NCBI GenBank assembly: GCA_021234155.1
Contig: JAJEKV010000039.1
Span: 13,400,241 to 13,464,240, forward strand
Reading direction: 5' to 3'
Length of the DNA stretch: 64,000 bases
Source of the DNA: Isoetes taiwanensis
Taxonomy: Eukaryota > Streptophyta > Lycopodiopsida > Isoetales > Isoetaceae
Made by a program: the position numbers and the translations under genes. The notes below the pieces were generated by a model that saw nothing but the letters and a program-made list of their open reading frames with translations, was not told the origin of the DNA and searched no databases. This document shows, piece by piece, positions 10,871 through 38,390 of this stretch; within the stretch, counting starts at the first letter, position 1; each line of letters begins with the position of its first letter.

Positions 10871-10876
10871 AAAGAG

Positions 10877-11046
<170 letters not shown>

Positions 11047-12334: not shown

Positions 12335-12441
12335 GTCATATGGTGTTTGTACCTTTGTGCCTAGCTCCGTTCTAAGGAATTTTTTTTTGGACCTTCTCTA
12401 CCCTTTTCCATGTATCCGCTGCCAAGCCTGGTCCCCAAACC

Positions 12442-13390: not shown

Positions 13391-13391
13391 C

Positions 13392-15539
<2,148 letters not shown>

Positions 15540-16110: not shown

Positions 16111-19043
16111 TTAAAAAGACCATGTATCGAATAAGACAATTCAAACTATGAGAATATAATAGTACGGGGAGGAAATGTAAGATGATAAAATGCCTACATT
16201 ACTATAGAGAGTAGGTAAAGGTAGCACACAATCCATAATTATGCCATCTTCGACATGGGACCCTTCTCTAATATTCTTGCTTGGAAAATTAGTAAGCATT
16301 CATGCTACATGGGACCCTTCCCTAGTTCTCTTATTTGGAGAATCGGTAAACCTTCATGACATTTAGAATAGAAAACGACACTTCTATTAATGATCTCGCA
16401 TAAGGATGGTCTCCCAAAACTAGGCCTTTAAAATAAAAAATGGATGCATAATGGAAACGTCAATACTAAAGCACAATGCATGTGAGCAAGGGCAAGCAAA
16501 GCCAGGTATCCGGACGTGCATGCAATGGCTTCTTACATTTTTTTCAGGTAAGAGTAGATATTTCCATTTAGAAAATAACAAGTACATAGTGCAACAAATG
16601 TTGCTTTCTAGATAGCAGCACAGAGCAGTACAATGTTTTATAATAAGTGAGCCATTTTTATTAAAAAAGGCTTACTGTAATATCAAAGGTACAAAGGTTT
16701 AAGAAGCCACTTCACAATATGGTACTAAGATTTGCAGATTACTTCGCGAGCACAAAGATGCTCGATATATCATTAAAATTGATTGCAACAGAGAAGAGGG
16801 TCAATGCTGGATCAAAATTCTTCGTCTTGTAAGCTGCATCGTATAGCACGAACCGGAAGGAAATCTACGACTACTGTACATGCCCAAAATAGGTGCTAGA
16901 CTATGCAATCAAAGCAAAATAATATTTTGATGATAAGCAAAAAAGTTCCATGGATTCACAAATAAAAAGTTATGACTTCGAACATGATAGTTTAAACTAT
17001 ACGGAAGATAGATGAAGCATAGTTGTTCCAAAAACATATGAATCCTTTTCCCAGCCATTTTCCATAAAGAAATGCCAGATGTATTCACTCCCCATCGACA
17101 GTAGAAAAGTTATATACAAATCTGCCATCTGCCTATGATCGTAATACATGGTCCTGTATCTTACTAAATTATGTTTTTTTGCTTCTTTCGTTTGCAATCC
17201 TAACTATAGCACTCGGCAAATTGCACATTTGCATCAATGAACTCTTTTTGTATAATGGGGCCTCATATAAATCTGGCTGATTACCAAACCTGTTACTTCC
17301 AGAACCTCTCAAGAACTCAAGATGACTTATGATCATCGGAGAAAGAAAGATTAGAATCAACAACATTTAAATTAGAAGTAAACATATCATACAAACCTTC
17401 ATAACTTCTTGCACTCTATAAATTAACCTGCAGATCTTTAAAATTGAACCTGAAGTGAAAAAAAGGCCATACCATCCAGTGAACTAAGTTGAAATGTTAT
17501 GTGCTTATATGCAAGATAGAACCAGCACGAGGATGCAATGGTATATTTGATGCATTGGGTTGGAGATATAGGCAACTATAAACATCCGGGAAAAGCTGGC
17601 CGGACAGACAACGAGATCAAGAACTAAATCATTCCTTCTATGTCATGCCCCAATAGAACGACCAATTCATGATCACATTGTCTGTGCGGCCAGCTAATTC
17701 CTGGAGTTAAAGGACTAGTAAAACATAATTGAATTAACTTAGAGAACATCACAAGAATGAAAATTATATATGACGATATGACAGAAGGGTTATCATACCA
17801 ATCGCCAGACGCTTGGCTCATTCAATAGATAGTAGTTTCTACGTCATACTACCTGTTTATATATTATCCTCTATTCTCTTCTCAACAATCAATATGGGGA
17901 CCCACTTTTAAACGATAAAATATATTGGTCACTATTGTTGTGTCTATCTCATGACAGATGTCTTCTTGTATACCTTACATTCACAAGTTGTTAATGTAAA
18001 GTTTGGGTTTGTGCAATTTTGCTCGCGCAACGAATCATACAATGCTATGTGGACAAGTTTCTAACCTGAATGCGATTAGTTTCTTTACTCTAGGGTAACA
18101 CATTAGTCCTAGAACATGTATGTTTTGACTTTGAGACCATCCAGAGTTGCACTATTTATAGATCCATCCCATGGCCCCTATAGGATCCACTTGGACGATT
18201 TAAAATAATATCTATCTATCTTTAGTTGCAATTTTTATGGTTTTACCCATCATTCCAAATACAAGCATTAAAATGGTTGTAAAGCTTAGAATATCAAGTG
18301 TTATGAAATGGCACTTCACCTGCTTGTTAAGCACTACTAGATCGTTGGGTAGGGTCAAAGAAAAGCATATAAAATAATACGAACTTAAAAGAGAAATATT
18401 TATCTAATAGTTCAAATATATATCAAGATAAGATATTGTCCAAATTTGCTATATAGTCCATCAGTTATTACATTTGCAAATGCCTGTTACAAATTTTTGG
18501 TTGGAAAAAAATGTTTTAACAAAAAATAAAGATTTTTATAAAAGGTTTTGTCCTACCAAGCTGTTACATGTAATATCTAAGTCGCTGAAATTAGATATAG
18601 AAGAGAAGCACTAGAGAGAAAATGCCAATTGTTGCCGCGTGTATACAGAGGTCAAATTCAGAGGACCTTGGGCTCATTGGAAAGCTTATGTAGAGAGCAT
18701 TCCGTTTTCTATTGGCATATGATTTGACCTAGATCTGTGAAAATAAGTCCTGACTTTTTGTACTTTTCAAACCGGATACCTTTTTACAAAGTGCGTGCCT
18801 TGCTGATTTGATTGTAATATGGTTTTTATCATAACTTTTGAATCCGGACTCCATTTTGAGTGTTTATTATTGCTTTGGAAAGCTCTCTCTGGGATCTTTC
18901 TAAGAATGTATGATATGCTCGTATTCAGTTAAGATTTCAAGGCCAAAATAACAAATTTCCTGGCAGATTTGATAGGGTTTCACACCCCACTAGTTGATTA
19001 AAACATGATTTGCACAGCAGCAAATCATACTCTATGTCCAGCT
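16111..19043. other. No supported gene
   Basis: AT-rich DNA with only short ORFs (up to about 70 codons). No motif, RNA gene or repeat boundary is recognisable. It ends at the left target-site flank of the 13-kb retrotransposon. Confidence 0.55.
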
Positions 19044-20518
19044 TGTGACGTCCCCTACTCGTATACGATGCCCGCACCGTACACAAACAGGAGTTCATCC
19101 CCCATACCAGCTCCATACTGATACATGGCCCTCCACATATCACTGTGACCGTCTGGAGTCCACAGTGGGAAGAGTGAAGGGGTCATTTTACCCCGTCTCC
19201 CTCAGGGCCTCCCTAGCTGCGGAAGCGTAAACATACACGTCAGTAACATAACATCATATATCCACCTCGAAGGGTGGCACATCAACATCTGCATAGACAA
19301 AGATCAGCACAATACAAAGGGAGTTCCTACCCAAGGCTCAGACTCCAGGGGATGACTGACAAGCTTGGGTCTCGAGTTCGCGCATGTCAGAATCATGACA
19401 ATGGATTGGGCTGGCATAAGAACATGGCTTAGGGTTGTCCACTCCATCCGCCCCTCCTTGTGCACACTTTGCAGAGTAGGTTGAAAAGTGTTGGGACCTT
19501 TGTAGCCAGCACACGGCATAGCCAAGGGGCTATTCTGGGTTACATCTCCCCAGTCCCGGATGGGGCGGTAGGGATCACTCCCTCCGAGATCTACATCTTT
19601 GACCCAAGGTGACTAGAGAGCCACCGCCCTTATTCGACTTAACCCACTGGAAGGTGAACACCACCCCACCGGGTGTCGAGCCCATGCCTTATCCACACAC
19701 TCGGTGGCAAGCCATTAGACCTAGTCATTCGATCCCCTAGACTTTACACTTTAGGATTCCGGTCAAGGGTCGAACACCTAACCTCATTCTAAGACAGATC
19801 GCCCCTTCACCCACAACCCGGTGGGCTCTTGTACACAGGCGAAATCTAGTAATGCACTAAGAGGGACTAGCTAGGAGCATCATCTACTAAGCTTTAAGTC
19901 TCTACCCCCCTTCCCAATACAATGAGTCCACAGGGAATACATCCGGTCCATCATCCGGACATAAGAAATGAGAACTAATCTAATACATAGAGTTAGGTTC
20001 TTTAGTTAGAGTCAATCTCGGGGATCTGCTTGGCTACTAAGGGCGATTCAATAGGCTAAACCTACTGGTTCGCAGGCTGGAATAAGGTTTAGGCTATTCA
20101 ATCGACCAAATACCGATCCTCAGTTCACTCCTCTTGATCCGAAGGCGTCCATGACTCGATTACCCAGATGCGGTGGGAGGGATGATCGACAAAATGATGG
20201 GGCGCAGGCGGTCGTGGGAGTTGGAATTGACTCCTCGGCCTTGAATCGAGCTTCGGGAGGTCTATGGGCGAAAAAGGAATGTTAGGGTTTGGTGCCTTAT
20301 GAAGGCTATCCGATTAGGTTTAGGGTTTCCATGACCCTTGGTCTACCTTTAATGGGTTAAAGGTCTAAAGGTCGCGCGCATTGCTAAATGTGCGCACCAT
20401 TGCAAGTTGCCCCCCTAGGGCGTCCTTGCTTAGGTACACGTCCGTCGGGGGCGTGTACAGCGTGTGGCCTTGATGCGGTATCGCCTTGAGACCGTGATAT
20501 CGTCTTTGGAACGCCACA
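19044..20518 (-). repeat. 3' LTR of the 13-kb chromovirus
   Basis: 1,475 bp, homologous along its length to 30,603-32,082. Left edge TGTGACGTCCCC, right edge GGAACGCCACA; the partner LTR keeps GGAACGTCACA here. Small ORFs inside both LTRs are co-linear and not coding. Confidence 0.93.
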
Positions 20519-20532
20519 TTCTCCCCACCTTG
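20519..20532 (-). other. Polypurine tract of the 13-kb element
   Basis: Directly inside the 3' LTR, the plus strand reads TTCTCCCCACCTTG, so the element strand is CAAGGTGGGGAGAA, a typical plus-strand primer. A second near copy (TCTCCCCACCTTGG) lies about 43 bp further in. Confidence 0.8.
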
Positions 20533-21457
20533 AATTGATGCTGTCCGCAGCATCGTTGGTCTCCCCACCTTGGGATCTTCTTATCCTGCAATCAACCTCA
20601 TGCATAGGACATCCTTATTACTACCATTTTAATAGGATTACCTCAAGGTAATATTTATAGAACATTATTATATTATTATTCAATCCACTAGTTATCACTT
20701 ATGTCATTATAACAATAACTCCTATTGTTTCGGTTTTATTATTATATGTACAATTATTCTTCGAGGTACTCGTTATTCCTTGCAACACATTACAACAAAA
20801 TTGTGTTGCAAGTCTTCGTAGTTCGACCTCCTGGCCCTCCAGAGCGCTCTATTGGCCTGCAGGTCAACACTACGTTAGTACCATTATTATTAATAAAATT
20901 TTGGTTATATGGTGACCACCCCACCTATCTACATGAATGCATGGCTAATCTCCCGGCGTAGGAAGAGGATGATTCTTCCATCGTGGCCGAGGAGACAAAA
21001 TGCCATAATGCCTATATGGCGCTCATGCCTACACCTTTAGTTGCCCAGCGTGGAGGATAGGTCCTTCCCGTATATGGGGCGTGAAGGCCAGATTCCTCCT
21101 ATCAAAGCATATATGGGGCTAGAGGTGCTTTTCCTATCAATGCATTCCTCAATGCTTGGTTGGGGGCAGGGCCCAACCAACCAAGCAATGTAGTGTGGTG
21201 TGTGGTCACATGTCCAGTTGGATGCTGCCTAGTGGCGTGACGTTAAAACTACTATCTATCTATCTATCTATCTATCTCTCGAGGTCGTCTACTTCCGTGG
21301 GACAGAAGTAGACTTTCCAAGCGGAACCGCGGTCATGCCTACATTGACATTACACCACGTCCTAGAGATCATCGTAGTAATCTCATCATCGGTAACAACG
21401 CATGCAACCCTTACCTCATAGGTTGCATGCGTAGATTATACTTAACTAGGCAAGCTA
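20533..21457 (-). other. Non-coding 3' region between pol and PPT
   Basis: About 0.9 kb without a supported ORF, AT-rich in its PPT-proximal half. It contains a (CTAT)n microsatellite at about 21,250-21,276. Confidence 0.5.
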
Positions 21458-22507
21458 TTAATCTACACAAATCGACATGCCTGAGCCGATTTCTTCGGAG
21501 ATGACCTTGCCGTCCCATTGCTCCATAAACTGTGGGTACTGTTTTTCCAGATCTCTTTTAAGTACCCATGTGGCGTCTTCCACTGGCAAGTGTTTCCACT
21601 TGACCAAGTATTGGAGGAACTCCGATCTCCTTGTTTTCTTGAAGGCCTTATCAAGAATTAGCTCTGGAACTATTTCTAACTGCTCCTCTGTCATTTCCAA
21701 CATCGTTGGAGTGTCCAAAACTTCCTCCGGATTGGGAGTATGCTTCTTCAGCAGACTCACGTGGAAGACTTTGTGGATCTTTAAGTGTGCTGGCAAGTCT
21801 AACTTGTAGGATTGGTTACCCACTCTTTGGACTATTCTGAAGGGTCCAGCCCACCTTGGAGCAAGCTTCTTGCAATTTCCGATGCGGAGTTTCGCCTGCT
21901 TTACCTTGATCTTGAGCCATACATCCTCTCCGACTTGGAATTCTCTAACTGTCCGATGTTTGTCGGCAATGCTCTTCTGCCGACTCCTTGCTACTAGAAG
22001 GTACCCTCGAACTTCTTCCACAAGCTGCTGCATGTCGCTCAACATTTGCTGCGAAACTTCCACTTTTGACACGGGATTGTGCCAAGTGTCTGGAGTTAGG
22101 CATTGGTAGCCGTAGTTGATCATGAACGGCGACATTTGGGATGATTCCTGCTTGATGCTATTGTATGCAAACTCCACCAAGTGAATAAATTCCTCCCACA
22201 TACCTTGCTTGTTCCAGACATAGTTTCGGAGCATGTCTTCCAATATTCTGTTGACACGCTCCGTTTGCCCATCCGTCTGTGGATGATAGGCCGTGCTCAT
22301 GGATAGCTTCGTTCCAATCGTTGTGAAGAGATCCTGCCAGAAGGCACTGATGAACTTCGGATCTCGGTCGGAGATAATTTCCCTTGGCATGCCATGAAGT
22401 CTGAAAATCTCTTTGGTGAAGAGCTTTGCCGTGTCCATAGCTGTGTCCGTGGTCCTGCAAGGCACAAAGTGGGCCATCTTCGACAACTTGTCGACCACGA
22501 CCATCAA
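21458..22507 (-). pseudogene. Integrase catalytic core, C-terminal part and chromodomain
   Basis: Integrase inserts the cDNA into the genome. This 349-codon frame carries the second and third catalytic residues (IISDRDPKF and DGQTERVNRILED). The first Asp (VVSMDFYN) is in the preceding frame, and a one-base difference in a T-run near 22,548 separates them. The GPFRIVQRVGNQSYKLDLP-type module follows. The end is a chromodomain (PELILDKAF..., YLVKWKHLPVEDATW). Of the three aromatic cage positions known from HP1, only the Trp of KWK is evident, as in the plant chromovirus subgroup with a reduced cage, so H3K9me binding cannot be assumed. The stop at 21,458 looks natural. Confidence 0.92.
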
Positions 22508-22514
22508 GGCATCC

Positions 22515-22960
22515 TTATCTCTTACTGTCCTTGGCAGTCCTATTATAAAAGTCCATGCTGACGACTTCCCACTTAGCGTTTGGCACCGCTAATGGTTCCA
22601 ATGCCCCTGGTATTCGGAGTTGTTCTGCCTTTGTTTGCTGACATAGCTGACACTCCTTGATGTAGCGGGCTATTTGCTTCTTCATTCCCGGCCAATAGTA
22701 GCTGCTACGCACTTTAAAGTATGTCTTCATGAATCCTGCGTGGCCAGCTATCGGGCTATTGTGGGTGTCGTGGAGGATCAACTTCCTTACTCCAGATGAT
22801 TCTGGCACGCACAACTTGTTCTTACGGTATAGGAGGTTACCTTCCTTCTTAAAATTTTTGAAGGTTTCCCTCTCCTTATCTGTTCTTGCTTCCTTGCACA
22901 AGCTTGCCCATACTTCCTTGAAGTCCACATCTGTTGGCAAGGTTTCTTCTATCTTTTTCC
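22515..22960 (-). pseudogene. Integrase zinc-binding (HHCC) domain
   Basis: The frame holds the H-H-C-C finger (HDTHNSPIAGHAGFMKTY ... CQLCQQTK) and then the start of the catalytic core (WEVVSMDFYN, first acidic residue). It is offset from protease-RT-RNase H near 22,960-23,000 and from the rest of integrase near 22,548. Both offsets are single-base-scale. The HHCC domain assists multimerisation and cDNA end binding in this family. Confidence 0.9.
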
Positions 22961-25195
22961 CGAAATCGCTGAAGAGCGTCGAGATTTGGTTGTCAGTGGA
23001 TGCCTTGAAAGCGCATCTGCTACCACATTAAGCTTCCCGGGCTTGTAGACTATCTCAAAGTCGTACTCCTCGAGAAATTCCATCCACCTTCTCTGCCTCA
23101 GATTGAGATGTGGTTGCGTGAATACGTACTGGAGGCTCTGGTGATCAGTGTCCAGCTGGAACTTCCTCCCTAAGAGGTAATGCCTCCAGATTCTCAACGC
23201 CCTGACAACTGCTAGCAACTTTTGGTCATGCGTCGGGTAACACGTTTCGGCGTCGTTCATCTTCCTTGAGTCGTACGCTATTACCCGCTCTTCTTGCATG
23301 AGCACTGCACCTGTGGCTATCTTGCTTGCGTCCGTCGCCACTAATTTGTCATTTTCCGGGTCTGGCAGGGTCAAGACGGGGGCGGTTGTCAAAGCTTCCT
23401 TCAACAACTCAAATCCTGCTTGGGCTTTCTTAAGCCAATGGTCTGCCCAATTTTTTACTTTCTCCGCCTTTGTCAAGTCTGTCAGTGGGGCTGCTATCTT
23501 TGCGAAGTTCTTCACGAACTTTCTGTAATACCCTGCTAGGCCAAGGAAACTTCTGACCTCATGGACGTTCTTTGGTGCCGGCCATTGGATTACTGCTTCA
23601 ATCTTGGCGGGATCTGTCGAGATTCCTTCTGCTGAGATCACATGACCGAGGTACTCTACCTTCTCTGTTGCGAAGTGACACTTCGACAACTTGGCATACA
23701 ACTGATGCCTCCTTAACTTCTCGAGTACCTTTCTTACGTGTTGTGCATGCTCTTCAATGGATTTACTGTACACCAGAATGTCGTCGAAGAATACTATCAC
23801 AAAGGTGTCCAAGTATTCCCTGAAGATGTCATTCATGAGTCTCATGAACGTAGCTGGGGCGTTGGATAGCCCAAATGGCATTACGGTGAATTCGTAATGC
23901 CTATATCTGGTCCTGAAAGCCGTTTTGTGGATGTCCTCTTCTTTTATTCTGATCTGGTGATAACCTGACCTTAGTTCGATTTTGGAGAAGATCTTTGCCC
24001 CTTGGAGCTGATCCATCAAGTCGTCTGATCTGGGGAGTGCGTACTTGTTCTTGATGGTGTGTTTGTTCAGTTGTCTGTAATCTATGCACATCCTCAAGCT
24101 TCCATCCTTCTTCTTGACAAAGAGGATGGGTGCCCCAAATGGTGAGACGCTCGGCCTGATGAAGCCCAGATCGAGCAATTCTTGTAACTGCTTCTTTAGC
24201 TCCGTGAGTTCATGTGTGGTCATTCTATATGGGGCCTTGCTCGTCGGCTTGGTCTCTGGTTCGAGTGTTATCTCACACTCTACTCCCCTGTAAGGAGGAA
24301 GCTTCTCGATCTCATCTGGAAAGAGATCGTGGAACTCCGTGATCAAGTTCGCAATTTGCTTGGGCAACTTGCTGAGCACTTTGTCTTCTTTGCTTCCCTC
24401 CGACTCGGGTTCCTCAACCTCGAGTTTGAAGATGTATGCTACCTGCTTGCTCTTTATAGACTTGAGCAGCTTCTTAACAGACATACACTGCATAATGGGA
24501 GTGACTTCTTTACCTGTGATCTCAATGGCTTTGTCGTCGGGCGTTGGGAAGGTCACCTTCAGCTTTCCACAATCAATGATGGCCCCTGCTGGTCCAAGGT
24601 ACTCCATTCCAACGATCAAGTCATATTTGCCAATGCCCATTACTTCCGCCCCCATCTGGATATTAATCCCTGGCAAGTCGATGTCGAAGTTGATCCTTTT
24701 TCCAGCTGTATGTCTTACTGCCCCGCTTGCCAAGATTACGGGTCTTGGTTTGGACTTTAGGGGTTTCAATTTCAACATTTCAACCATCCTCGGGGATGCG
24801 AAGTTATGGCTACTCCCAGAGTCTATCAAGACTATGAAAGACTTGGCCTTTGCCTTCCCTATTGTGGAGATTACCTTATACTGGGTCTCTGCCTGTTCTG
24901 TATCTATAGCAGCGAAGATGTGGCACTCACCCTGAATGTAATCTCGTGCCTCCTCGCCGTCCTCGTCTGACGGAGTGTCCCATCCGCCCAATTCTGCCAG
25001 CGCTGAGCTCATAACAAATGGGCAGTTCGCCATTCGGTGGCCCGGTTGGAAACATCTAAAGCAGAGCTGCTTCTCTATGCATTCACCGCTTTTCTCCTTG
25101 GGCATCGCCAGTAAGAAGGACCGTCTTGCTTTGAGTAGTTGGAACCTTCTGTTTGTCCTTGAAGGACACCCGCTTTCTTTCTGTTGTTTCCCCAC
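22949..25195 (-). CDS. Gag zinc knuckle, aspartic protease, reverse transcriptase and RNase H
   Basis: A 748-codon open frame; its first Met is only the first in frame, not a true start. The CCHC knuckle [14 protein letters not shown] is at residues 45-58. The protease active site ([13 protein letters not shown]125) follows. RT spans about 320-560 with [23 protein letters not shown] and [10 protein letters not shown] (D471-D472). RNase H (about 615-730) has VATDAS (D622) and LDTDHQSL. Two catalytic positions look altered. RT motif A reads [12 protein letters not shown], with Glu407 where the family has Asp. RNase H reads [10 protein letters not shown], with Lys659 where the family has Glu. 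These suggest weakened or dead enzymes despite the long open frame. Confidence 0.95.
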
Positions 25196-26240
25196 AGTTT
25201 GCTATTGTATGGGGACTTTTCTTTGGACTTGGGGCTGGCTGCCCTAGGATCAGTAGCTCCTGTTGCTTTGCCTCTATCACGATAGTAAGGCTGCCTGCCT
25301 CTATGTTTTTGTTTTATGCCCGGATCCTTGCAAACTAATTGCTTTGGATTCTGCTTCCGATACTGTTTTAGGGTCTATTGCCCTTACGAGCTTCCGGATT
25401 TTCTCGTTCAGTCCTTCTATGTAGCTTTCCACTCGTGTTTCTCCCTTTCGGCTTTAGGCACATACTGATCTTAGCCTCATGAACTCTTGATGTACTTCTC
25501 GGACCGTCTTGTAACCTAACCAGAATCACGTAGAACTGCTGCATCATATTCGACTTGTGTTCCCGAGGAACATAGTGGTTCTTGAAGGCTTTTGAGAACT
25601 TAAATCGGCATGCATCTCTGCTCAACCCATGGGCTTTGGCATAGCCCTTCCACCATATCGCGTGCCCTTCCCCTTAGTGTTGGTTTGTCGCCACCGCCTT
25701 TGTCCTTATCCTTCATTCCGTAGGCATTGCCATACTAAACTCATTTAGGTGCCGAGCCATGCCTCTCGCCTCTAAAAGCGGATCTGTTTCGCCCGAACTG
25801 TTGAAGTTCAGAGGCTTTCCATACATTGCCCAGTCTTTGAGTCCACCTTCTTACGGTAGTCCGGGGCCTTAGTGTCCTTCCTTCTTTGTCTCTACGGTCC
25901 GGCGCCTGCTCGGCCTCTTTCTCGGACTCAGAATCCGAGGTCGAGCTTGAGTCGGAGGTCTCTGTGCTAGGGGACCTCCTTCTCTTATTCCTCCTCTTGT
26001 CTTTCCCCGACTTTCGGGGTGTCGTTTGTGGCCCGGTAGGGCCTTTATCTGGTCCAGCTCTGTTCGCATCTGCGACATCTCCTCTTCTGGGGTCAGGGGA
26101 CCATATCCTTCGAACAGGTTCCTTTGAAGGGGTTGTCTGTCAGGAGTCTCTTCATCTCTGTTGGGCCTCCTATTTTGTTCGACCGTTCGTTGTTCTCTAT
26201 CTGCACACACAGTTGGTTATGGCTGTACGGTTAGTTTTAT
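25196..26240 (-). pseudogene. Gag capsid region of the chromovirus, frameshifted
   Basis: Readable gag blocks in order on the minus strand are an N-terminal acidic helix (EEEMSQMRTELDQIKAL, near 26,110-26,030), a capsid segment with KPLNFN and DPLLEARGMARHLNEFSMAM (near 25,830-25,730) and ACRFKFSKAFKNHYVPRE (near 25,610-25,560). The frame changes several times and has stops, for example after MAMPTE. Gag normally forms the particle. This copy could not do so without help. Confidence 0.8.
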
Positions 26241-26382
26241 TTGTTCTCTTGCATTATATGTGATGTTGGTATAGTTGTGGAACAAAAATACATCAACAAA
26301 ACATTTAAAGTGCAAAAAGAAGTTATATTCATATTATATAATATGTTAATACAAAAAAGGCTTCCGGGATCAAGATTCCTAA

Positions 26383-27897
26383 CTATTCTTGATATCGCCG
26401 GTAGGATGGATTATCCTCAAGGAACTTCTTCACTTGGGCTGTTCCCACTGAATGACCTAAGTTCCTAAGGACGTTGACTGAAGATCCCCCCTGCAAAGCT
26501 CTCGCCAACTCTTCTATCCTGGCCCCGGAGGTATAGGCGGCTGTCACTTGGTCTTCCCTGCCGTCTGTAAGGTATGGCGAAGTCAAAAACATCGAGTGCT
26601 ACCGCTCTCTTCACCATGATGGCATACTCGGTGTTGGGAGCTAGCCGAGCATGCCGGCCAAAGCCTGAGAGTGCAATTAGCATCGATACTCCTTCCTCGC
26701 CCCTGGGGGTGAACTTGCGGTGAATTACATCCCATCCATCGGCGGGGAAGGTAATACCGCAACGACACAATGGTTTCGCGTAGGTCCTCGCCTCCTCGGC
26801 CTCCAGCTCTGTGTCTACCGGCATAGTCATCGACTTCCACCGTGGTGAGCTCCCTGTAGTCTCTGACTGTTGCTGAAGCTCTCCTTAGGTCGAACTCGCC
26901 TCTTCGCTCCCGGGGAGGCGTTGTCGAAGAACTTGCCGTTAAGATGTTCGAGGTCGCGTGGCGGATCCCCATCTGTTCCTGTAGAGCAAGGAACTCTTCC
27001 TCCGTCGGTAGTTCCCCTGCCTCCATAATCTGCCTGATGTTGCTGTAGGCTTGGATATCGGAGGTCGACTTTCCCGTGTAAGTGTCGGCTTCCCTTACTT
27101 GGAGTGGGAAGTCGGAGGTTCCTCGGACGATGAAGTCGTCCAGGTCTGTTCTCCGGAGTTGGTGCAGCAATTCGTCCAGTCGATACTCCCTTTCCCTGCA
27201 CTTCGGGAGGTTCTGGATGTCGCTTAAGAGCAAGTACTCTTCGCCCTCGACGATGATGGGGGCTAGGCTTGTGATGCCTAGCCCAAGGGGTGGCGCTATC
27301 CTGAGAGTCTGCCGGCTTCTTTCGAATTCCTGCAACTCTTGTTCTACTAGCCGCTGCTCTTCCGCTGGGTCGAGCTCGACGTAGTCGTCATCTTCTTCTT
27401 CTGACTCTTCGTCTTCTTCCTTTCCTTCTTGCTCCTGTTCATACTGCGAAAGGAGCTGTTGTGCTGCTGCGGTGGCTAATGGGTCCACGTCCATGGGGGG
27501 AATGGAGGTTTCTCCCATGGGGTTCTCGGCACGGTGGGTAAGAAAAAATTGCTAAGGCAGAGTTGAAAGAGAAGTACTTGGTCCTGTTGACAGTCAGGAC
27601 CATTGGCTCGGGCATGCGCTGGGCCTTGTTTGTGAGATACTTGGCAATGTTAGGAACATCGCCTAAGGCTGCTTGAAGGGATTGCCTAGGAACAAAGTAG
27701 CCTATGCAAGGTGGGAGCTGTACTAATGATGGCTCTACCCTAGCTTGGAATTCGGACAGGACTCTGCTATATGCTGGGGTTGCGTGCAAGGTTGCTTGAA
27801 CATCTATTTCTTTGCGGAAGACCCGGAAAATTTCATCGATGTCCTCGGCAGCATGAGCGCTGACGCTGTACCATCGCCTGAAATTAGAGGTTGCCAT
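26383..27897 (-). pseudogene. Unrecognised additional ORF2 of the chromovirus, frameshifted
   Basis: About 500 codons in three or four frames that overlap end to end (27,897-27,545; 27,545-26,830; 26,830-26,590; 26,590-26,383), so one ancestral protein is likely. The first break lies at a run of six T. The likely start is ATG at 27,897. A strongly acidic tract (EEDEESEEEDDDYVELD, about 27,430-27,345) is followed by Glu/Gln/Arg-rich helical sequence; the C-terminal third is more globular (VSMLIALSGFGRHARLAP). I recognise no family. It is neither the gag capsid, which lies downstream, nor a histone fold that I can see. Acidic tracts are common in histone chaperones, so a partner role for the neighbouring H3-like protein is a speculation worth testing. 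Confidence 0.65.
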
Positions 27898-28209
27898 GAG
27901 TTAAGCGAGGAAGAGACTAGCAAACGAATGCAAGAGCGCCTCAGGGAGCTGGGAAATCGGCTAAGGGGGCAGGAGCAAACTCGTAGGGTGCTACGTATGA
28001 AATGAGGGACCTATTTATAGAAAAGGTGAAAACCCTAATTTTTGGGTGACTTGGAAAATTCTTGGGGTTGGGCAATTCTAGCCTATATTGAGGTCAAAAT
28101 GGGAATTGGAAGACTAACTTAAGGGTTTGAGCATGACTGGATTACCTAAAGATGCTAATACAACAGGTTGAAGATCATTTGGACAAGTTATGGTGAAGAA
28201 ATGGTAGGA

Positions 28210-28280
28210 GGTCTCACAGGTAGCGCCTCGTTCAAAAACTACACTTTAGTTTCTTGAGCAGGCGCGACGTGTGAGACATC
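28210..28280. repeat. Hairpin repeat h1
   Basis: A ~70-bp imperfect palindrome: left arm GTCTCACAGGTAGCGCC..., a CAAAAACT / TTTAGTTTCTTGA core and right arm ...GGCGCGACGTGTGAGAC. It lies between the H3-like ORF and ORF2. The arms pair over about 30 bp with a few mismatches. Confidence 0.9.
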
Positions 28281-28409
28281 AGTCCCATTTTGATCAAAAC
28301 ATGTCCAATTTAGGTAAAATAAGGGTGTAAGGATGACAGACTCATCAAATCAGGCAGAATTGACCCCTTATTTGGTCAATTTGGGGCTGTTTTGGGCAAG
28401 TTTGGGCAA

Positions 28410-28480
28410 GGTCTCACAGCTAGCGCCTCGTCCAAAAACTAAACTTTAGTTTCTTGACCAGGCATGACATGTGAGACATC
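28410..28480. repeat. Hairpin repeat h2
   Basis: Second copy, beginning exactly 200 bp after h1 and in the same orientation (GTCTCACAGCTAGCGCC ... CCAGGCATGACATGTGAGAC). It lies about 140 bp beyond the H3-like stop codon. Confidence 0.9.
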
Positions 28481-28620
28481 ACACTTTTCGGTCCGCAATT
28501 GTCCTATTTTACTAAAACAAAAACTAAAACCTGCTAACTTGTCCTAATTAAACAGGTTCAGACACACAAAGTACTCAAAATTGATTTATATTACAAAATT
28601 TTTGACTATTTATAAAATGT

Positions 28621-29952
28621 TCAAGGTCGCTCTCCCTTGATGCGAGTAGCAAGATGCATATCTTGCCTCATCAGTGTTACTCGCTTTGCATGAACAGTGC
28701 AAGCCGTCGAGTCTTCAAAATGTTGCACTATTTTCTGCTCCGCCGCTTCCTGCAGTGCCAGCAGCATTTCATCCGTGACCCTCATGTCAGTCTTGAAGTC
28801 CTGCATCACTTCTCTGACTAGACGGGCAAAGGGGGCATGGGGGATTAGGAGGCCGTAGCTGCGCTGAAAATGTCGGATTTCTCTCAGTGCTCTTCTTTCG
28901 GTCTCCTTCCTGCTGAGCTTCTTCTTAGCTGGTCTCTTAGGGGCCTTGGGCTTTGGTGGTGGTGGCCTTAAGGTCTGGCTCTTCGTTGGATGGCCACCCT
29001 CGATGGCTCTGACTCTATTCTCCTGGTAGTAGGAGTTGTAAGCCTCCCACTCCTTCATGTATGCCTCGTGCTCCCGCATCTTTCGCTCGTAGATCTTTAC
29101 GGGGTCCATGACATAAGATTCTCGGGCAGGCCGGGGTTGCTTCTTCCTGTCCCACTTTGGATAAGGAGGGGGCTTCTGCACTTTGTCCGATTGCTCCTCC
29201 TCGGGCGCTATCTGCTCGGTTACCACATGCTCAACGATCGGGGGTTTGGAGGAGCCTGCCCCCTCAGTGTTGGGGTTATGGTCTTCGTCAGAATCCTCGG
29301 AGGAGGCCGGGGGCTGATCAGGTGGCCGTTCGATAATGGTGATCTTGGGGTTGGGCTTCTTTACTTTTGGGACCTCCTTGAGCTTCCTTGGGCTCCCCAC
29401 CCATTTCCCTTTCTTCTGCTTCAGTTCCTCTGCCGCTTTCGCCTCCTCCTCTTCCCTCTTCCTCTTCTTTTGTTCCCTTTTCCTTTCTCGGCATTCATAC
29501 TTTGCGATAAACGCAGCGAGGTCTGCTTCCTCCGCCGGCTCAAGCCTCGGCTCCCGGTGTTCCTCTCGTTTCTCGGCCTCCTTCTCGCGGATCCAGGCTT
29601 CGAGTTGCTCTTCAATGGTGGGCTCGGGTGTCGGTAGTCTCTGCTCCTCACGAGCCTTGGTCCTTTGTTCTCGCTGTGCTCCCTCCTCTTCTTCTTCAAT
29701 TATCTCCGTTCCTGCTTCTGAGTGCACCTCTTCTTCTCGGTCGACCTGCCGGTCTCTCTCCTCATTCCGCTCTGTTCTCTGCTGGGATCCTTCACTATTG
29801 TGCTCATTCGAGGGTTCTCCCTCACTCGAAGAAGATTGACCGTTGGGGTCAAGAAGGCGCTCCTGAAGCATGCGTCGAATCGTGCTGGAATCAAGGGCGC
29901 TGGTCGATTCGCCTGGGCGGGCTTTCCTGGCAATTTGTTTGGTCCGTGCCAT
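28621..29952 (-). CDS. Histone H3-like protein with a ~330-residue insert between tail and fold
   Basis: 443 residues, no stop or frameshift. Residues 1-11 are [11 protein letters not shown]; canonical H3 starts (M)ARTKQTARKS, so R2, K4, R8 and K9 are kept, T6 becomes Ile and S10 becomes Ala. Residues 14-340 are a low-complexity charged insert: acidic tract 82-90, basic clusters 157-168 and 180-200, and a Pro-rich segment 330-342. Residues 355-443 are a full H3 fold ([44 protein letters not shown], ending IKGERP). By eye these 89 residues align without gaps to canonical plant H3 recalled from memory, with about 52 identities. The H3-H3' contacts C110, H113, D123, L126 and R129 are all present (offset 308). 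K56 is Arg and K122 is Gln. Loop 1 lacks the extra residues usual in CENH3. It is the first ORF after the PBS. Probable role: nucleosomal or nucleosome-like H3 variant; function unproven. Confidence 0.93.
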
Positions 29953-30162
29953 GTTTGACGGTTCGACAATCGGATATCAGGTGCCAAAGATCGCCTTAGG
30001 GAGCGGGAGCAGATTTCAAGGGCGGGAACGTACAAATGAGGGGGGTCTACATCTATTTATAGTTTGGGCAATTTTAGGTCAAAGTTCAAGTTGCTCTATT
30101 TAACATGCCAAGGCATCTATTTATTTAAAACTTACACTTATTTCAGACTTTTTCTACTTATT

Positions 30163-30231
30163 GGTCTCACAGGTCGCGCCCTGTTCAAAAACTAGAGTTT
30201 AGTTTTTTGACCAGGCGCTAGCTGTGAGATC
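30163..30231. repeat. Hairpin repeat h3
   Basis: Third copy (GGTCTCACAGGTCGCGCC ... TTTTTTGACCAGGCGCTAG ... CTGTGAGATC), about 210 bp before the H3-like start codon in element orientation. It has the longest perfect core pairing of the four: TCAAAAACTA against TAGTTTTTTGA. Confidence 0.9.
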
Positions 30232-30329
30232 TTACACATTTTTAAGTAATTTAGACATGCTATTCTAATTAATTCCTACCTTGGAACTAGCCTTACCATA
30301 TTACTTTTCTCAAATTCATCAAGTTTAGT

Positions 30330-30398
30330 GTTCTCACAGGTAGCGCCCTATTCAAAAACTAAAGTTTAGTTCTTTGACCAGGCGCGAGCTGTGAGACC
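30330..30398. repeat. Hairpin repeat h4
   Basis: Fourth copy (TTCTCACAGGTAGCGCCC ... TTTGACCAGGCGCGAGC ... GTGAGACC). It starts 167 bp from h3 and lies about 190 bp downstream of the PBS in element orientation. Confidence 0.9.
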
Positions 30399-30589
30399 AC
30401 CTTGCCTGAGGAGGTTCTGGCTCATTCTTTTTAGTCTTATTAAGTTCCAATTCACTCAATTGTTACTAGCTTAGCATAAACTACCAAAAATGAGAAAAAA
30501 TTTTCCCACTTTTCGAGGCTTAAGGGTCCTATCAAGTTAGTACTACTGGGAGCATGGTCAGTGCTTTGCTCTTGGTCTCCAAGAACATT

Positions 30590-30601
30590 GCTCTGATACC
30601 A
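30590..30601 (-). other. Primer binding site, tRNA-iMet type
   Basis: On the element strand the sequence next to the 5' LTR is TGGTATCAGAGC after a single spacer base. This is the plant initiator tRNA-Met PBS and fixes the element's orientation. Confidence 0.95.
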
Positions 30602-30602
30602 T

Positions 30603-32082
30603 TGTGACGTCCCCTACTCGTATACGATGCCCGCACCGTATACAAACAGGAGTTCATCCCCCGTACCAGCTCCATACTGATACATGGCCCTCCACATATC
30701 ACTGTGACCGTCTGGAGTCCACAGTGGGAAGAGTGAAGGGGTCATTTTACCCCGTCTCCCTCAGGGCCTACCTAGCTGCGGAAGCGTAAACATACACGTC
30801 AGTAACATAACATCATATATCCACCTCGAAGGGTGGCACATCAACATCTGCATAGACAAAGATCAGCACAATACAAAGGGAGTTCCTACCCAAGGCTCAG
30901 ACTCCAGGGGATGACTGACAAGCTTGGGTCTCGAGTTCGTTCGCGAGCATTTCATGACAATGGATTGGGCTAGCATAAGAACATGGCTTAGGGTTGTCCA
31001 CTCCATCCGCCCCCCTCACATTGCACACTTTGCGAGTAGGTTGAAAAGTGTTGGGACTTCGATCAGAGTAGCGGGGTGCATAGCCAAAGGGGCTATTCTG
31101 GGTTACATCTCCCCCGTCCCGATGGGGCGGTGGTAGGATCACTCCTCCTCAGATCTACATGCTGACCCAAGGTGACTAGAGAGCCACTGCCCTTATTCGA
31201 CTTAACCCACTGGAAGGTGAACACCACCCCACGGGTGTCGGCCCATGCCTTACCCACACTTTCGATTGGCAAGCCATTAGACCTAGTCACTCTGATCCCC
31301 GGTAGACTTTACACGCCAGAGGGATCGGTCAAGGGTCAGAACACGAACCTCATTCTAAGCCAGTCTGGCCCCTTCACCCACAACCCGGTGGGCTCTTGTA
31401 CACAGGCCGAAATTTAGTAATGCACTAAGAGGGACTAGCTAGGAGCATCATCTACTAAGCTTTAAGTCTCTATCCCCCTTCCCAATACAATGAGTCCACA
31501 GAATACATCTGTCCATCATCTGAACATAAGAAATGAGAACTAATCTAATACATAGAGTTAGGTTCTTTAGTTAGAGTCAATCTCAGGATCTGCTTGGCTA
31601 CTAAGGGCGATTCAATAGGCTAAACCTACTGGTTCGCAGGCTGGAATAAGGTTTAGGCTATTCAATCGACCAAATACCTGATCCCTGGTTCACTCCTCTT
31701 GATCCGAAGGTGTCCATTACTTTGTTCTGCTTCGAGATGCGGTCGGAGGGATGACCTGACAAGCTGGGGCGCACGGGCAGATCGTGGGAGTTGGAATTGA
31801 CTCCTCAGGCGCGCGAATCGGAGCTCGGGAGGTCTATGGGCGAAAAAGGGAATGTTAGGGTTTGGTGCCTTATGAAGGCTATCAGTTATTCCATGACCCT
31901 TGGTCTACCTTTAATAGGTCTAAAGGTGCGCGCATTGCTAAGTGTGCGCACCATTGCAAGTTTCCCCCTAGGGCGTCCTTGCTTGGGTACACGTCGGCGT
32001 ACACGTCGACTGGACGGCGTGTACGCGTGACGGCGCAGTACGGTATACGTCTTGAGACCGTATATCGTACTGGAACGTCACA
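30603..32082 (-). repeat. 5' LTR of the 13-kb chromovirus
   Basis: 1,480 bp, TGTGACGTCCCC ... GGAACGTCACA as read on plus. It differs from the 3' LTR by scattered substitutions and small indels. Both termini contain an ACGTCAC-type core on one strand, a sequence that plant bZIP factors can bind. Whether this matters for transcription is not shown here. Confidence 0.93.
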
Positions 32083-32951
32083 CATCTGATCATTCTAGTC
32101 TTGTCCTTTGTCTTGCATCATTGTAGTACAAGAAGATTTTATGAAGATATTGAAGAGATGATGTTATCATAGCCGCGTTTTGTATAAAAAAAAAATGGAA
32201 CTTTCTACTTTCACATGTTATGGAATTTGTGCTATATTTGATGGTTTATATGTTATTCATGAACTTGCCAATGTTTGAATTTTTAATTCTTTTCTAAATA
32301 AAAAAAACAACATCTCCCATAATGCACTAAATAAATACATTCATATTCATATTCAGATTTTTTTTTTTCATTTCATAATTCCTGCAATCTAAGTTATTCA
32401 TGGGGCACCACTCAAGTTTAATCAGTATATTTTTTTTCGAAGGACGAACAAAAAGTTTATAAGTCGCATCTAATTAAAGTGGGTCACATCTTGACGTTTG
32501 GGGCTCATGCAGGAAAATGGAACTCATAAAAAAAAAAGTTTTGCATTGAATGCCTGATAGAAATACACATCATAGAACAAGAACTGGCTCACTTGTATTT
32601 CTCATAAAATTTATAAACCACAGTTGAGAAAGTTCTCAGGAATTTCAAGCACAATGTATAAATAATATTATCTACTCTCATACAATGCTATAGCAGGAGG
32701 TTGCTCATGGCTTTGTCCATTTCCCTAAAAACAATTCTATTCTATTCTATTCTATTCTAACTTATTCTATTCTTTTGGGGATCTTGTGGGTTGTCCTTTG
32801 AAATGTGACAAGTAGGGTATGACCATAGCACACACTCCACCAATTTCTCCTTTGAGGATCAGCAGCATTTTCCCTCCTTCTCCCAGCAGTCGGAGCACTC
32901 CTCCTTCAAGTTGCCCCTTTTTTGCCTTCCAACGGGTTCCCAATATTGAAC
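32083..32951. other. No gene; pentanucleotide tail-like tract
   Basis: AT-rich DNA. At about 32,733-32,776 an (ATTCT)n tract follows CCTAAAAACA and resembles the 3' tail of LINE-A and the tail-like tract at 52.6 kb. It may be a severely truncated LINE. Confidence 0.5.
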
Positions 32952-34277: not shown

Positions 34278-35399
34278 TTCTTGTTTTCTTTCCAAGAGTT
34301 GTCCAGCTGAACACATAACTCCTCTGGCAATTGTTTTTCATGTATGGAGAACTCGTCCCAAATCCTCCTTGTTTCTTTCGACACTTTGGATGTGAGCTCC
34401 TTTATCTGCCTTTGGTAAATAAGCAGTTGATCATCCATCGAAACATAAAAAATGGGGGCTGAGGGAGAATCTCCCTTCTGTAGACCCTCTCTCTAGTGTT
34501 CTCAAGCACTTGAATGGAATTCACATGGAAATTCCGATCATCCCTCCAAAGATCAAGCCTTTGTGGACATGACATGGCCTTTGTGGGCATCTCCATTCCA
34601 TAACTAGAAACATGTTACATACTTTTGATCTCAAAGAGAGAAGCTTATCCCCGGGATGAAAACCTCGCCCTTTCGGGTTTTCGAGGAAACCCTAAAGATA
34701 AACAACCATCTAAGAGATCTTGTACACACATGAATAAAAAAAGCACCCTCATGCCTACGGGCCTTTTTGGGTTTACAGATGGGTTGTAGAAATAATCCAA
34801 GTGTTAGTGAGTCACGCGGCTATGCATGAACCTGTTTGAAAGCAGCATCTACGCCAGCCAAAATCGCCAACATGACAATATCATCCTGCAAAACAAAAGC
34901 ATGGGTAAGACAAGACCTTGGGCCCACTGGCACCAAAGGATACCTTCGCAACCACTGCTGCAACCAGTCTTAACAGCCAACCAGGCTCACATACCACCAA
35001 CATAGCCATGTTGGATCCAGTACAAACATAAGCCACCAAGGCTCCAAAATCATACCAATAGTTCCATATGAACATAAGCCACCAAGGCTTCCAAAACCAT
35101 AAACAATTAATTCCATAGCAACATAAGCCACCAAGGCTCCAGCATCATGATCAGACAAAATATCAGTAGCCAAGAAAGGACATATAGCAAGGGCAAACAA
35201 GAGAAACTAGAAAGACAAGCTTATATATCAATAGAGGGGAAGAAGGAGGGAGGGTGGGGAGGGGAAGTGCGCTCTAGCAAATTCCAGAAATGGAGATGCG
35301 AAACAAAGCACTGATGCAAAGAACCTAAAAGGCACGCTACTAATAGGCAAGGGTCTGGCAGTTGCCAACTGCCCGGGACACTTGTCCCTTAGCTCTAGA
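34278..35399. repeat. Tandem duplication unit A
   Basis: The unit contains the coding block LDLWRDDRNFHVN...LDNSWKENK and about 0.85 kb of other DNA. That DNA carries a possible exon (element strand ...TTTTGCAG then DDIVMLAILAGVDAAFKQ then a GT) and three copies of AACATAAGCCACCAAGG. It is nearly identical to unit B at an offset of 1,166 bp. Confidence 0.93.
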
Positions 35400-36565
35400 A
35401 GTCCATTTACCATCTATTCGTTGAAAACGAAGGTAAATGTGACTTCTTGTTTTCTTTCCAAGAGTTGTCCAGCTGAACACATAACTCCTCTGGCAATTGT
35501 TTTTCATGTATGGAGAACTCGTCCCAAATCCTCCTTGTTTCTTTCGACACTTTGGATGTGAGCTCCTTTATCTGCCTTTGGTAAATAAGCAGTTGATCAT
35601 CCATCGAAACATAAAAAATGGGGGCTGAGGGAGAATCTCCCTTCTATAGACCCTCTCTCTAGTGTTCTCAAGCACTTGAATGGAATTCACATGGAAATTC
35701 CGATCATCCCTCCAAAGATCAAGCCTTTGTGGACATGACATGGCCTTTGTGAGCATCTCCATTCCATAACTAGAAACATGTTACATACTTTTGATCTCAA
35801 AGAGAGAAGCTTATCCCCGGGATGAAAACCTCGCCCTTTCGGGTTTTCGAGGAAACCCTAAAGATAAACAACCATCTAAGAGATCTTGTACCCACATGAA
35901 TAAAAAAAGCACCCTCATGCCTACGGGCCTTTTTGGGTTTACAGATAGGTTGTAGAAATAATCCAAGTGTCGGGTGAGCTGCTGGCTATGTATGAACCTG
36001 TTTGAAAGCAGCATCTACGCCAGCCAAAATCGCCAACATGACAATATCATCCTGCAAAACAAAAGCATGGGTAAGACAAGACCTTGGGCCCACTGGCACC
36101 AAAGGATACCTTCGCAACCACTACTGCAACCAGTCTTAACAGCCAACCAGGCTCACATACCACCAACATAGCCATGTTGGATCCAGTACAAACATAAGCC
36201 ACCAAGGCTCCAAAATCATACCAATAGTTCCATATGAACATAAGCCACCAAGGCTTCCAAAACCATAAACAATTAATTCCATAGCAACATAAGCCACCAA
36301 GGCTCCAGCATCATGATCAGACAAAATATCAGTAGCCAAGAAAGGACATATAGCAAGGGCAAACAGGAGAAACTAGAAAGACAAGCTTACATATCAATAG
36401 AGGGAAAGAAGGAGGGAGGGTGGGGAGGGGAAGTGCGCTCTAGCAAATTCCAGAAATGGAGATGCGAAACAAAGCGCTGATGCAAAGAACCTAAAAGGCA
36501 CGCTACTAATAGGCAAGGGTCTGGCAGTTGCCAACTGCCCGAGACACTTGTCCCTTAGCTCTAGA
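35400..36565. repeat. Tandem duplication unit B
   Basis: A full 1,166-bp unit; few substitutions relative to A, so the duplication is recent. Its first ~45 bp, absent from unit A, contain an inverted repeat CATTTACC...GGTAAATG. Confidence 0.93.
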
Positions 36566-37114: not shown

Positions 37115-37439
37115 AGTCCATTTACCATCTATTCGTTGAAAACGAAGGTAAATGTGACTTCTTGTTTTCTTTCCAAGAGTTGTCCAGCTGAACACATAAC
37201 TCCTCTGGCAATTGTTTTTCATGTATGGAGAACTCGTCCCAAATCCTCCTTGTTTCTTTCGACACTTTGGATGTGAGCTCCTTTATCTGCCTTTGGTAAA
37301 TAAGCAGTTGATCATCCATCGAAACATAAAAAATGGGGGCTGAGGGAGAATCTCCCTTCTATAGACCCTCTCTCTAGTGTTCTCAAGCACTTGAATGGAA
37401 TTCACATGGAAATTCCGATCATCCCTCCAAAGATCAAGC
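37115..37439. repeat. Tandem duplication unit C, partial
   Basis: 325 bp identical in order to the start of unit B. It then diverges after GATCAAGC into the upstream coding sequence (GHFV-LDLWRDD), so unit C keeps the original 5' junction of the gene and unit A the original 3' junction. Confidence 0.9.
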
Positions 37440-38390
37440 ACAAAATGCCCATAGGTATCAATGCTATGTCCATGTGTTAAGATACCCCCCAAACTCACTT
37501 TCATCTGAAAAGCGTTTTGACAACACTTGGGCAAAGATCTAGCTTTGGCAAGAAAGTCTTGTGTTGGTCCATCTTATCATGGATAAAATGCTTTTATCTA
37601 TCAGGCTGCATCTGGAAAATTGTTCTCCAGTGCCAATACAGTTGTCTACATTATACGGTCTGATTACTGATCTGCAAATTGCTCCCTGATTGCCATCCTT
37701 TCTTTTGCTACGCAGTTAATGCAAGTGTATCCTTCAGGTGAATGCAGGTGTTGCACTTTGAGAATGGCATTTGTTGCAAGACACACACGTCTAAAAAGTG
37801 AGTTTTCCATAACCTGCTGAAAAATGACTGAGAAAGAGGCCGACCACCAGTAGCTTCTAGAATGGAGTTGACCTCTTTAAGGCACTCTTTCTAGATGCAA
37901 TGTTGTGGCAACATTCTTTGCACCACTTGTACACCGCGCCTTGGACTTATAGGGCATACGTTGGGACATATATTTCACAAAGCTTTCGAAGACTGCAATG
38001 GCCCTCAAAGAGTTTGCTCTAGGTTTCAAAGTCACTGAATTGTCATGCTGGAATAGTTTGTGCCCTCTTCTGACCTGTTCCCAATATCTGTAAAATGATG
38101 TCTTGCTCAAGCCAAGAATCCATCTTAATACTCTCATACACACCCTCAAGCCCTTCAATTGATAAAATAATATTCCTGTGGCATCATCATAGCAGGAATT
38201 TCTACAATCTTGTCTTTCTGAAATTGTCCAATGTATTGAGACTGTATTCAACAAGGTCATTTACACTATATTGAATTGTGCAATCGAGACTGCAACACTC
38301 TTGTCCCTTGACCGCTTCTAGGTTTTCTTTGGTTGCTGCCATACTCTCCATCCTTCGTAAACACCTCACACTTCTAGCCCTTTTAGGCAC

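Follow-up and report, generated by a model that had tools for sequence, protein, structure and literature searches.

A histone H3-fold open reading frame in a chromodomain Ty3/Gypsy retrotransposon family of Isoetes taiwanensis

The window, that is the whole stretch of 64,000 nucleotides of Isoetes taiwanensis DNA that was analysed (assembly GCA_021234155.1, contig JAJEKV010000039.1), contains a complete LTR retrotransposon with an open reading frame for a protein that ends in a histone H3 fold. The element and its features, in their order on the minus strand, are as follows:

19044-32082, minus: complete LTR retrotransposon (Ty3/Gypsy, chromodomain), 13,039 bp, delimited by LTRs, PBS, PPT and flanks
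32083-32087, minus: 5' target-site flank AGATG
30603-32082, minus: 5' LTR, TGTGACG...CGTCACA
30590-30601, minus: primer binding site (PBS) TGGTATCAGAGC, one base past the 5' LTR
30329-30401, minus: hairpin up1, before the H3 ORF, z -6.2
30162-30234, minus: hairpin up2, before the H3 ORF, z -6.1
28621-29952, minus: H3-fold ORF, 443 aa, open from ATG to stop
29923-29952, minus: H3-like N-terminus, residues 1-10, with I6 in the window copy (MARTKQI)
28627-28890, minus: H3 histone fold, residues 355-442, from Pfam and alignments, with helices in a low-confidence model
28409-28481, minus: hairpin dn1, after the H3 ORF, z -5.7
28209-28281, minus: hairpin dn2, after the H3 ORF, z -5.9
26386-27897, minus: ORF2, second additional ORF, split over frames in the window copy
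25087-26216, minus: gag, broken, outer limit inferred, with capsid-like similarity at about 25516-25304
22949-25195, minus: CCHC knuckle, protease, reverse transcriptase and RNase H
22515-22940, minus: integrase zinc-binding domain (Pfam)
21458-22507, minus: integrase core, SH3-like domain and chromodomain (Pfam Chromo, 3.5e-11)
20519-20531, minus: polypurine tract (PPT) AAGGTGGGGAGAA
19044-20518, minus: 3' LTR, starting TGTGGCG in the window copy
19039-19043, minus: 3' target-site flank AGCTG

The element displays the hallmarks of a Ty3/Gypsy chromovirus, namely TG...CA LTRs, PBS, PPT, a target-site duplication, gag with CCHC, protease (PR), reverse transcriptase (RT), RNase H, integrase and chromodomain, and its order reads LTR, PBS, hairpin, hairpin, H3, hairpin, hairpin, ORF2, gag, pol, PPT, LTR. 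The PBS TGGTATCAGAGC is presumably of the plant initiator Met tRNA type, and the target-site duplication is a near-match with 4 of 5 bases identical between AGATG and AGCTG. An alignment of the 5' and 3' LTRs over 1,530 columns shows 58 substitutions and 64 gap events with a patchy distribution; most of the differences are clustered small indels, and the final 330 columns are nearly identical, with 3 differences. Since the differences are patchy and indel-rich, dating from the LTRs was dropped. They resemble leftover consensus errors of nanopore reads more than the effect of age; the assembly is described as nanopore-based with racon and pilon (PMC8566536), and some of the frame breaks in element copies probably come from assembly error as well. 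For I. sinensis, HiFi reads were used (PMC10541799).

A preliminary description, made from the letters of the window alone, had pointed to a 443-codon ORF with an H3 N-terminus and a gapless H3 fold, and this was borne out: all 443 codons are open and the Pfam Histone family matches residues 327-439 at 7e-28 (97.8 bits against a curated cut-off of 26.4). Furthermore, H3.3 is matched in the PDB at 6.4e-28, and the fold aligns without gaps to the plant H3 contained in P0001 with 52 of 88 residues identical. The plus-strand reading of 28621-29952 is broken, and the ORF, like the other element features, is read from the minus strand. Its placement by that description in a chromodomain gypsy element, on the gag-pol strand between PBS and gag and with a charged linker, is likewise supported. 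The protein departs from a standard H3 in several respects. Its 443 aa are far from the ~ 135 aa of a standard H3, the canonical tail from K14 to K36 is absent with a charged linker of more than 300 residues in its place, and the PGT motif before alpha-N is missing, ERRAL being found there. Residues that contact the nucleosome are changed as well, as assessed by reading the sequence (R63P, K122Q and R128T, with K64H in the window copy). Predicted models of the protein are of low confidence (pLDDT 58.7 and 63.2): in the second of these four helices are placed as alpha-N to alpha-3, and for the first, which covers the whole ORF, the top six PDB matches, all at E of 0.0047 or above, come from chains of the H3, CENP-A or Cse4 type. 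Long helices are predicted in the linker, also in a low-confidence model.

Searched against a protein database, the whole H3 protein gave at least 1365 matches; all 120 that were listed have histone domains, and the six that were inspected are fused or tandem canonical H3s. The linker alone found no match among 8000 candidates scored, and a scan of viral contigs gave 31 stretches that fit a pattern with 0 confirmed among the candidates scored. As to an H4, H2A or H2B partner inside the element, tblastn and phmmer gave nothing credible among the matches listed: the segment of an H4-like string seen by eye scored E 3.4, and the single H2A match (0.002) falls in a shifted frame of ORF2.

ORF2 is one open frame of 508 aa in the copies L009 (3358-4881, plus) and L025 (5106-6629, minus), and neither Pfam (below E 0.05) nor the PDB (below E 0.2) has a match to this 508-aa protein. 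The stretch 27897-26465 had earlier been called gag; its ORFs have no Pfam match to gag and the stretch corresponds to ORF2, the capsid similarity and the CCHC knuckle being found further downstream, at about 25516-25000. Indeed, a melon gag (P0177) matches 25435-24794 at 2e-8, and Ty3_capsid matches weakly at 25453-25304 (E 0.013, which does not reach the cut-off). In the window copy, the reading frames of gag and of pol are both interrupted. In the chromodomain, the first and third aromatics of the methyl-lysine cage seem to be missing so that one of three is kept, as judged by eye. Group II chromodomains are reported to keep one of the three cage aromatics, and their partner had not been found according to the same source (PMC3350952). 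Because two cage aromatics appear by eye to be missing, it is doubtful that the chromodomain reads a K9-methylated H3 supplied by the element itself, attractive as such a self-reading loop would be.

Four palindromic stem-loops of ~ 65 nt each flank the H3 ORF in most copies. Among 21 sequences, up1, up2, dn1 and dn2 are found at fixed positions in 17, 20, 19 and 21 respectively, counts that include two downstream matches in L020 that look spurious and a weak one in L015. Their stems vary little, and two-sided compensatory cells number only 0, 3, 2 and 1. In the rest of the window just two stretches fit the arm pattern, each with three mismatches. A match of the hairpins to the mir-77 RNA family scored 27.4 bits, below the gathering score of 83, and was treated as chance.

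The genome (1,658,258,908 bp in 1110 contigs) was searched with the 443-aa protein and at least 98 matching rows were obtained (95 candidates scored of 23,304), with identities from 65% to 100% except for three short fragment rows at 40-58%. Of these 98 rows, 38 have no internal stop, the three fragments included, which does not prove an unbroken frame. The 20 best copies after that of the window were then taken as long copies with 10 kb fetched for each, and 20 further ORFs were fetched, 19 of which were chosen for having no stop. In the long copies ORF2 is found downstream in 18, a capsid match in 16 and a PR-RT match in 18, and an exact PBS adjoins the same LTR end in 15 of the 20. The full order PBS-hairpins-H3-hairpins-ORF2-gag-pol is seen in 13 of the 20 under a strict count with exact PBS, which includes L024 on PR-RT alone without a capsid match. 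Among the exceptions, L012 has no gag or RT match, L022 no ORF2, and L027 only H3 and two hairpins; the exact PBS is lacking in L009, L014, L015 and L020. The two-mismatch PBS matches in L009 and L020 are false and lie within hairpins.

The preliminary description had considered that no second copy with H3 inside the same LTRs might exist, which the copies contradict, and that 26-30 kb might be a chimeric assembly joint. Such a joint is very unlikely because other contigs repeat this arrangement of LTR end, PBS, hairpins and H3 ORF with almost the same spacing. The order LTR-PBS-H3-gag that it proposed to look for does recur, but with ORF2 between H3 and gag. Its reading of the N-terminus holds for the H3-like start, whereas the MARTKQI of the window copy is atypical: MARTKQTARK, the canonical H3 start, is exact in 28 of the 40 fetched copies, for which MAR was not required, and ARTK is kept in 33 of the 40. 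In five of the fetched copies without MARTKQTARK the start is plainly misplaced or lost. The H3 gene is a family trait of the element.

Selection was analysed on 22 of 41 ORFs (20 long copies, 20 fetched ORFs and the window), each taken from ATG to stop with at least 330 aa. This set is enriched by the choice of stop-free ORFs, a MAR start was required, and L021 and L022 end ~ 20 residues early. With Nei-Gojobori counts pooled over all pairs (pS about 0.5), dN/dS is 0.014 for residues 1-10, of which residues 1-3 are biased by the MAR requirement, 0.23 for the linker (residues 16-340) and 0.09 for the fold (residues 353-442). Judged from these ratios, purifying selection clearly acts on the H3 ORF; it is at its strongest in the N-terminal 10 residues and in the fold, whereas the linker evolves fast. 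Genes were also compared over the 20 long copies and the window, using alignment pieces of at least 70% identity. In this comparison dN/dS is 0.185 for H3 (21 copies), 0.376 for ORF2 (13 copies) and 0.217 for PR-RT-RNase H (13 copies). ORF2 is hence under purifying selection too, milder than that on H3, and H3, with a ratio near that of PR-RT-RNase H, is thus under a constraint similar to that on the polymerase; the fold is probably under tighter constraint than the polymerase, although the copy sets differ.

The H3 module is also the most divergent part of the element. Median nucleotide identity to the window element is 81.3% for tail and linker, 86.3% for the fold and 84.3% for gag, and 87.9% for the 5' leader, 88.8% for ORF2, 89.8% for the spacer and 92.8% for PR-RT-RNase H. 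Synonymous divergence follows, with a pS of 0.417 for H3 versus 0.234 for ORF2 and 0.193 for PR-RT-RNase H in copy sets that differ. The greater divergence of the H3 module could reflect either allele exchange between element lineages or a module that is diversifying.

The genome was further searched with the fold of plant H3.3, and 150 places were scored of 8,811 candidates. Fifteen of these are canonical H3 genes (98-99% identity), and in the other 135 the fold is 85-90% identical to canonical H3, many of them lying in long open frames. Four of the latter (L053-L056, open frames of 451-540 aa) have another N-terminal part and an H3 fold ending in GERP or GEWP, with Y41, H87 and L90 as in plant H3.3. 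A fifth ORF, L059, which comes from a search for the host CENH3, is an open frame of 471 codons (404 aa from the ATG) that starts MANTKSA, likewise has another N-terminal part and an H3 fold ending in GERP or GEWP, and has F at 41 and 87. From their identity we infer that the rest of the 135 places belong with these ORFs. The host H3.1-type gene has Tyr41, a residue reported in the H3.1 of plants that precede ferns (PMC5809374). In the search for the host CENH3, the places scored (150 of 8044) were taken up by canonical H3 genes and element-type H3s, from which a host gene was not separable, and the word "histone" does not occur in the main text of the Isoetes taiwanensis genome paper (PMC8566536).

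These frames represent a second H3-bearing lineage, which is probably a sister of the family of the window. It is called so because L057, the context of L054, has two short stretches in common with the window LTR (87-92%) and a weak ORF2 match (9e-8); no pol match was found in its 9 kb. The MARTKQ tail is missing from the five second-lineage ORFs inspected, which argues that the tail is not needed for the role of the fold there. Moreover, the C-terminal GERP and a HP..T..P.P string before the fold are common to the two lineages and speak for a common source of both.

In order to place the fold, a maximum likelihood tree was built from 33 folds, including 19 of the 22 family ORFs, three short folds being dropped. 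The human CENP-A and yeast Cse4 sequences were verified; the three plant CENH3 sequences in the tree and alignments are provisional versions rather than database records. In the unrooted best tree the family of the window groups with the three provisional plant CENH3 (UFBoot 97); the family alone has a UFBoot of 100, and the second lineage joins canonical H3 at 80. A tree constrained to a single capture together with the second lineage gives a p-AU of 0.068 and one constrained to an origin within canonical H3 a p-AU of 0.118; AU rejects neither, although RELL and ELW exclude the former. Identity of the fold is 53 of 89 to plant H3.3 versus 54, 48 and 49 of 88 to the three provisional CENH3. 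Of the 36 positions at which the fold departs from H3, 12 agree with at least one provisional CENH3 and five with all three, a count made without a control. The fold alignment holds no insertion of the CENH3 loop-1 type. Furthermore MARTKH and PGTVAL, which are named as CENH3 identity motifs (PMC9842635), are absent, with MARTKQ and ERRAL instead. Because AU leaves the alternative trees unrejected, a CENH3 affinity of the fold is favoured but not established, and the capture of a host H3 by the element, as the preliminary description had it, is uncertain.

Compared with known systems, the element is a chromovirus, hence a known kind of element, with a new cargo, H3. It has the LTR, PBS, PPT, CCHC, PR-RT-RNase H-integrase and chromodomain of plant chromoviruses, to which it adds two pre-gag ORFs, one with an H3 fold, and four conserved hairpins. 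Histones are encoded by DNA viruses, such as the H4 of bracoviruses and the histone doublets of Marseillevirus, and core histones are found in DNA virus genomes; in contrast, the histone here, a lone H3 with a linker of more than 300 residues, is encoded by a retroelement. With CENH3 and CENP-A the protein has in common a short conserved start, a variable tail and an H3 fold, and in the best tree it groups with the provisional plant CENH3, but it is without the loop-1 extension, MARTKH and PGTVAL of CENH3. Extra ORFs are known in plant LTR elements (PMC7264820), and gypsy elements of Phalaenopsis carry an AlkB-type m6A demethylase ORF proposed to counter host surveillance (PMC9289625). The latter are likewise a gypsy lineage with a fixed host-type domain, AlkB-type there and H3 here. 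The corresponding screen of 121 angiosperms, which covers angiosperms only, lists no histone domain in its consulted part (PMC9289625). In Dothideomycete fungi, histone H3 was captured by hAT transposons and is present in many copies; those of P. fijiensis are inactivated by RIP except for the original gene, and P. tritici-repentis has potentially active copies (PMC6710886). Both cases have an H3 coding sequence in many copies on a mobile element, but the fungal one is a DNA transposon with passenger copies, for which the consulted part of the source describes no selection as an element gene (PMC6710886). The hallmarks of a hAT-captured H3, namely a hAT transposase, TIRs and an 8-bp TSD, do not apply to the element: it has LTRs and 5-bp flanks, and the Pfam hits include no hAT domain. 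The literature searched, mostly outside subscription journals, showed no account of an LTR retrotransposon that encodes a histone. To our knowledge, no other retroelement has a histone as cargo.

Because of its fixed place in the element, its many copies and its purifying selection, we read the H3 ORF as a working accessory gene, for an element-encoded H3 variant that would pair with host H4 on element DNA, and we give this reading a slightly better than even chance. The protein would enter nucleosomes or tetrasomes on that DNA, either the cDNA en route to the nucleus or integrated copies, and would replace host H3 there. It would offer a K4/K9 tail to host chromatin factors, the K14-K36 region being swapped for an extended spacer that is flexible and charged. 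Overall, element chromatin might become harder to silence, or easier for the element itself to recognise. The preliminary description had suggested that the protein could mark, package or retarget the chromatin of the element. Several findings stand against this proposal: contact residues differ, PGT is absent, the models are of low confidence, dN/dS was computed mostly on ORFs chosen as stop-free, the second-lineage ORFs inspected are without the MARTKQ tail, and the chromodomain cage is mostly missing by eye.

Alternatively, the protein could be a histone mimic, a soluble decoy whose N-terminus occupies host readers or writers of H3K4 or H3K9 and weakens silencing without entering nucleosomes. 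The first 10 residues are indeed the most constrained stretch (residues 1-3 are biased, but the MARTKQTARK count supports it), and the linker to which they are joined is long, evolves faster and is predicted to form long helices. However, the fold is strongly constrained too (dN/dS 0.09), and the related ORFs of the second lineage keep the fold and not the tail. A soluble decoy is not obviously in need of a fold this constrained, which favours an H3 variant that enters chromatin; we consider a mimic unlikely.

A centromere-type variant, that is a CENH3-like histone captured and used for deposition at, or for reaching, centromeric chromatin, seems quite unlikely to us. The best tree (UFBoot 97) and the matches to plant CENH3 at 12 of the 36 H3-differing positions, five of them to all three, would agree with it, but the plant CENH3 sequences are provisional and overall identity does not separate H3.3 from CENH3. 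Neither alternative tree is rejected by AU (0.118 and 0.068), although RELL and ELW exclude the tree with the second lineage. Moreover, the protein is without loop-1 extension, MARTKH and PGTVAL, and the host CENH3 is not separable from element-type copies.

The basic fold and charged linker could also condense element RNA or cDNA within the particle or next to it and play no part in host chromatin. The position of the H3 ORF upstream of gag and the charge of the linker fit such packaging, as does the neighbouring ORF2 with no known domain and a milder selection (dN/dS 0.376), but the conserved N-terminus identical to that of H3 is left unexplained and we consider this reading decidedly improbable. 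That the ORF is a retrotransduced H3 pseudogene carried by chance is almost certainly wrong: transduction of host genes by retrotransposons is known (PMC7264820), but the ORF recurs family-wide in one place, with open frames and a dN/dS far below 1 at a synonymous divergence of ~ 0.5.

Taking the accessory gene for an H3 variant as the preferred reading, a broader one can be put forward tentatively, which may well be wrong: a lycophyte retrotransposon clade would make some of its chromatin itself. Proteins with an H3 fold would be encoded by two or more related lineages, in one case with a CENH3-like fold and a canonical K4/K9 tail and in the other with an H3.3-like fold and another N-terminal region; these would be deposited with host H4 on element DNA and set its chromatin state, and a contest with host silencing would drive the divergence of the linker. 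Transposons are usually pictured as silenced via host histones, and a conserved H3 encoded by an element would reverse these roles, since H3-carrying elements may change chromatin using their own protein. The family thus offers a testable model for mobile elements that write their own chromatin state and for the birth of new histone variants. Open H3 copies exist, so expression, localisation and biochemistry are directly testable.

Outside the element, other repeats are present in the window. A tandem duplication of 1.17 kb (98%) with a third partial copy close by accounts for 34278-36565 and 37115-37458. A remnant of a Gypsy-like RT at 2687-3331 is matched by Pol proteins, and a second RT remnant, at 11672-13563, has a weak zf-RVT match near it (LINE-like). 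Short-period tandem repeats lie at 10873-11046 and 13395-13559, the second one within an RT-bearing frame.
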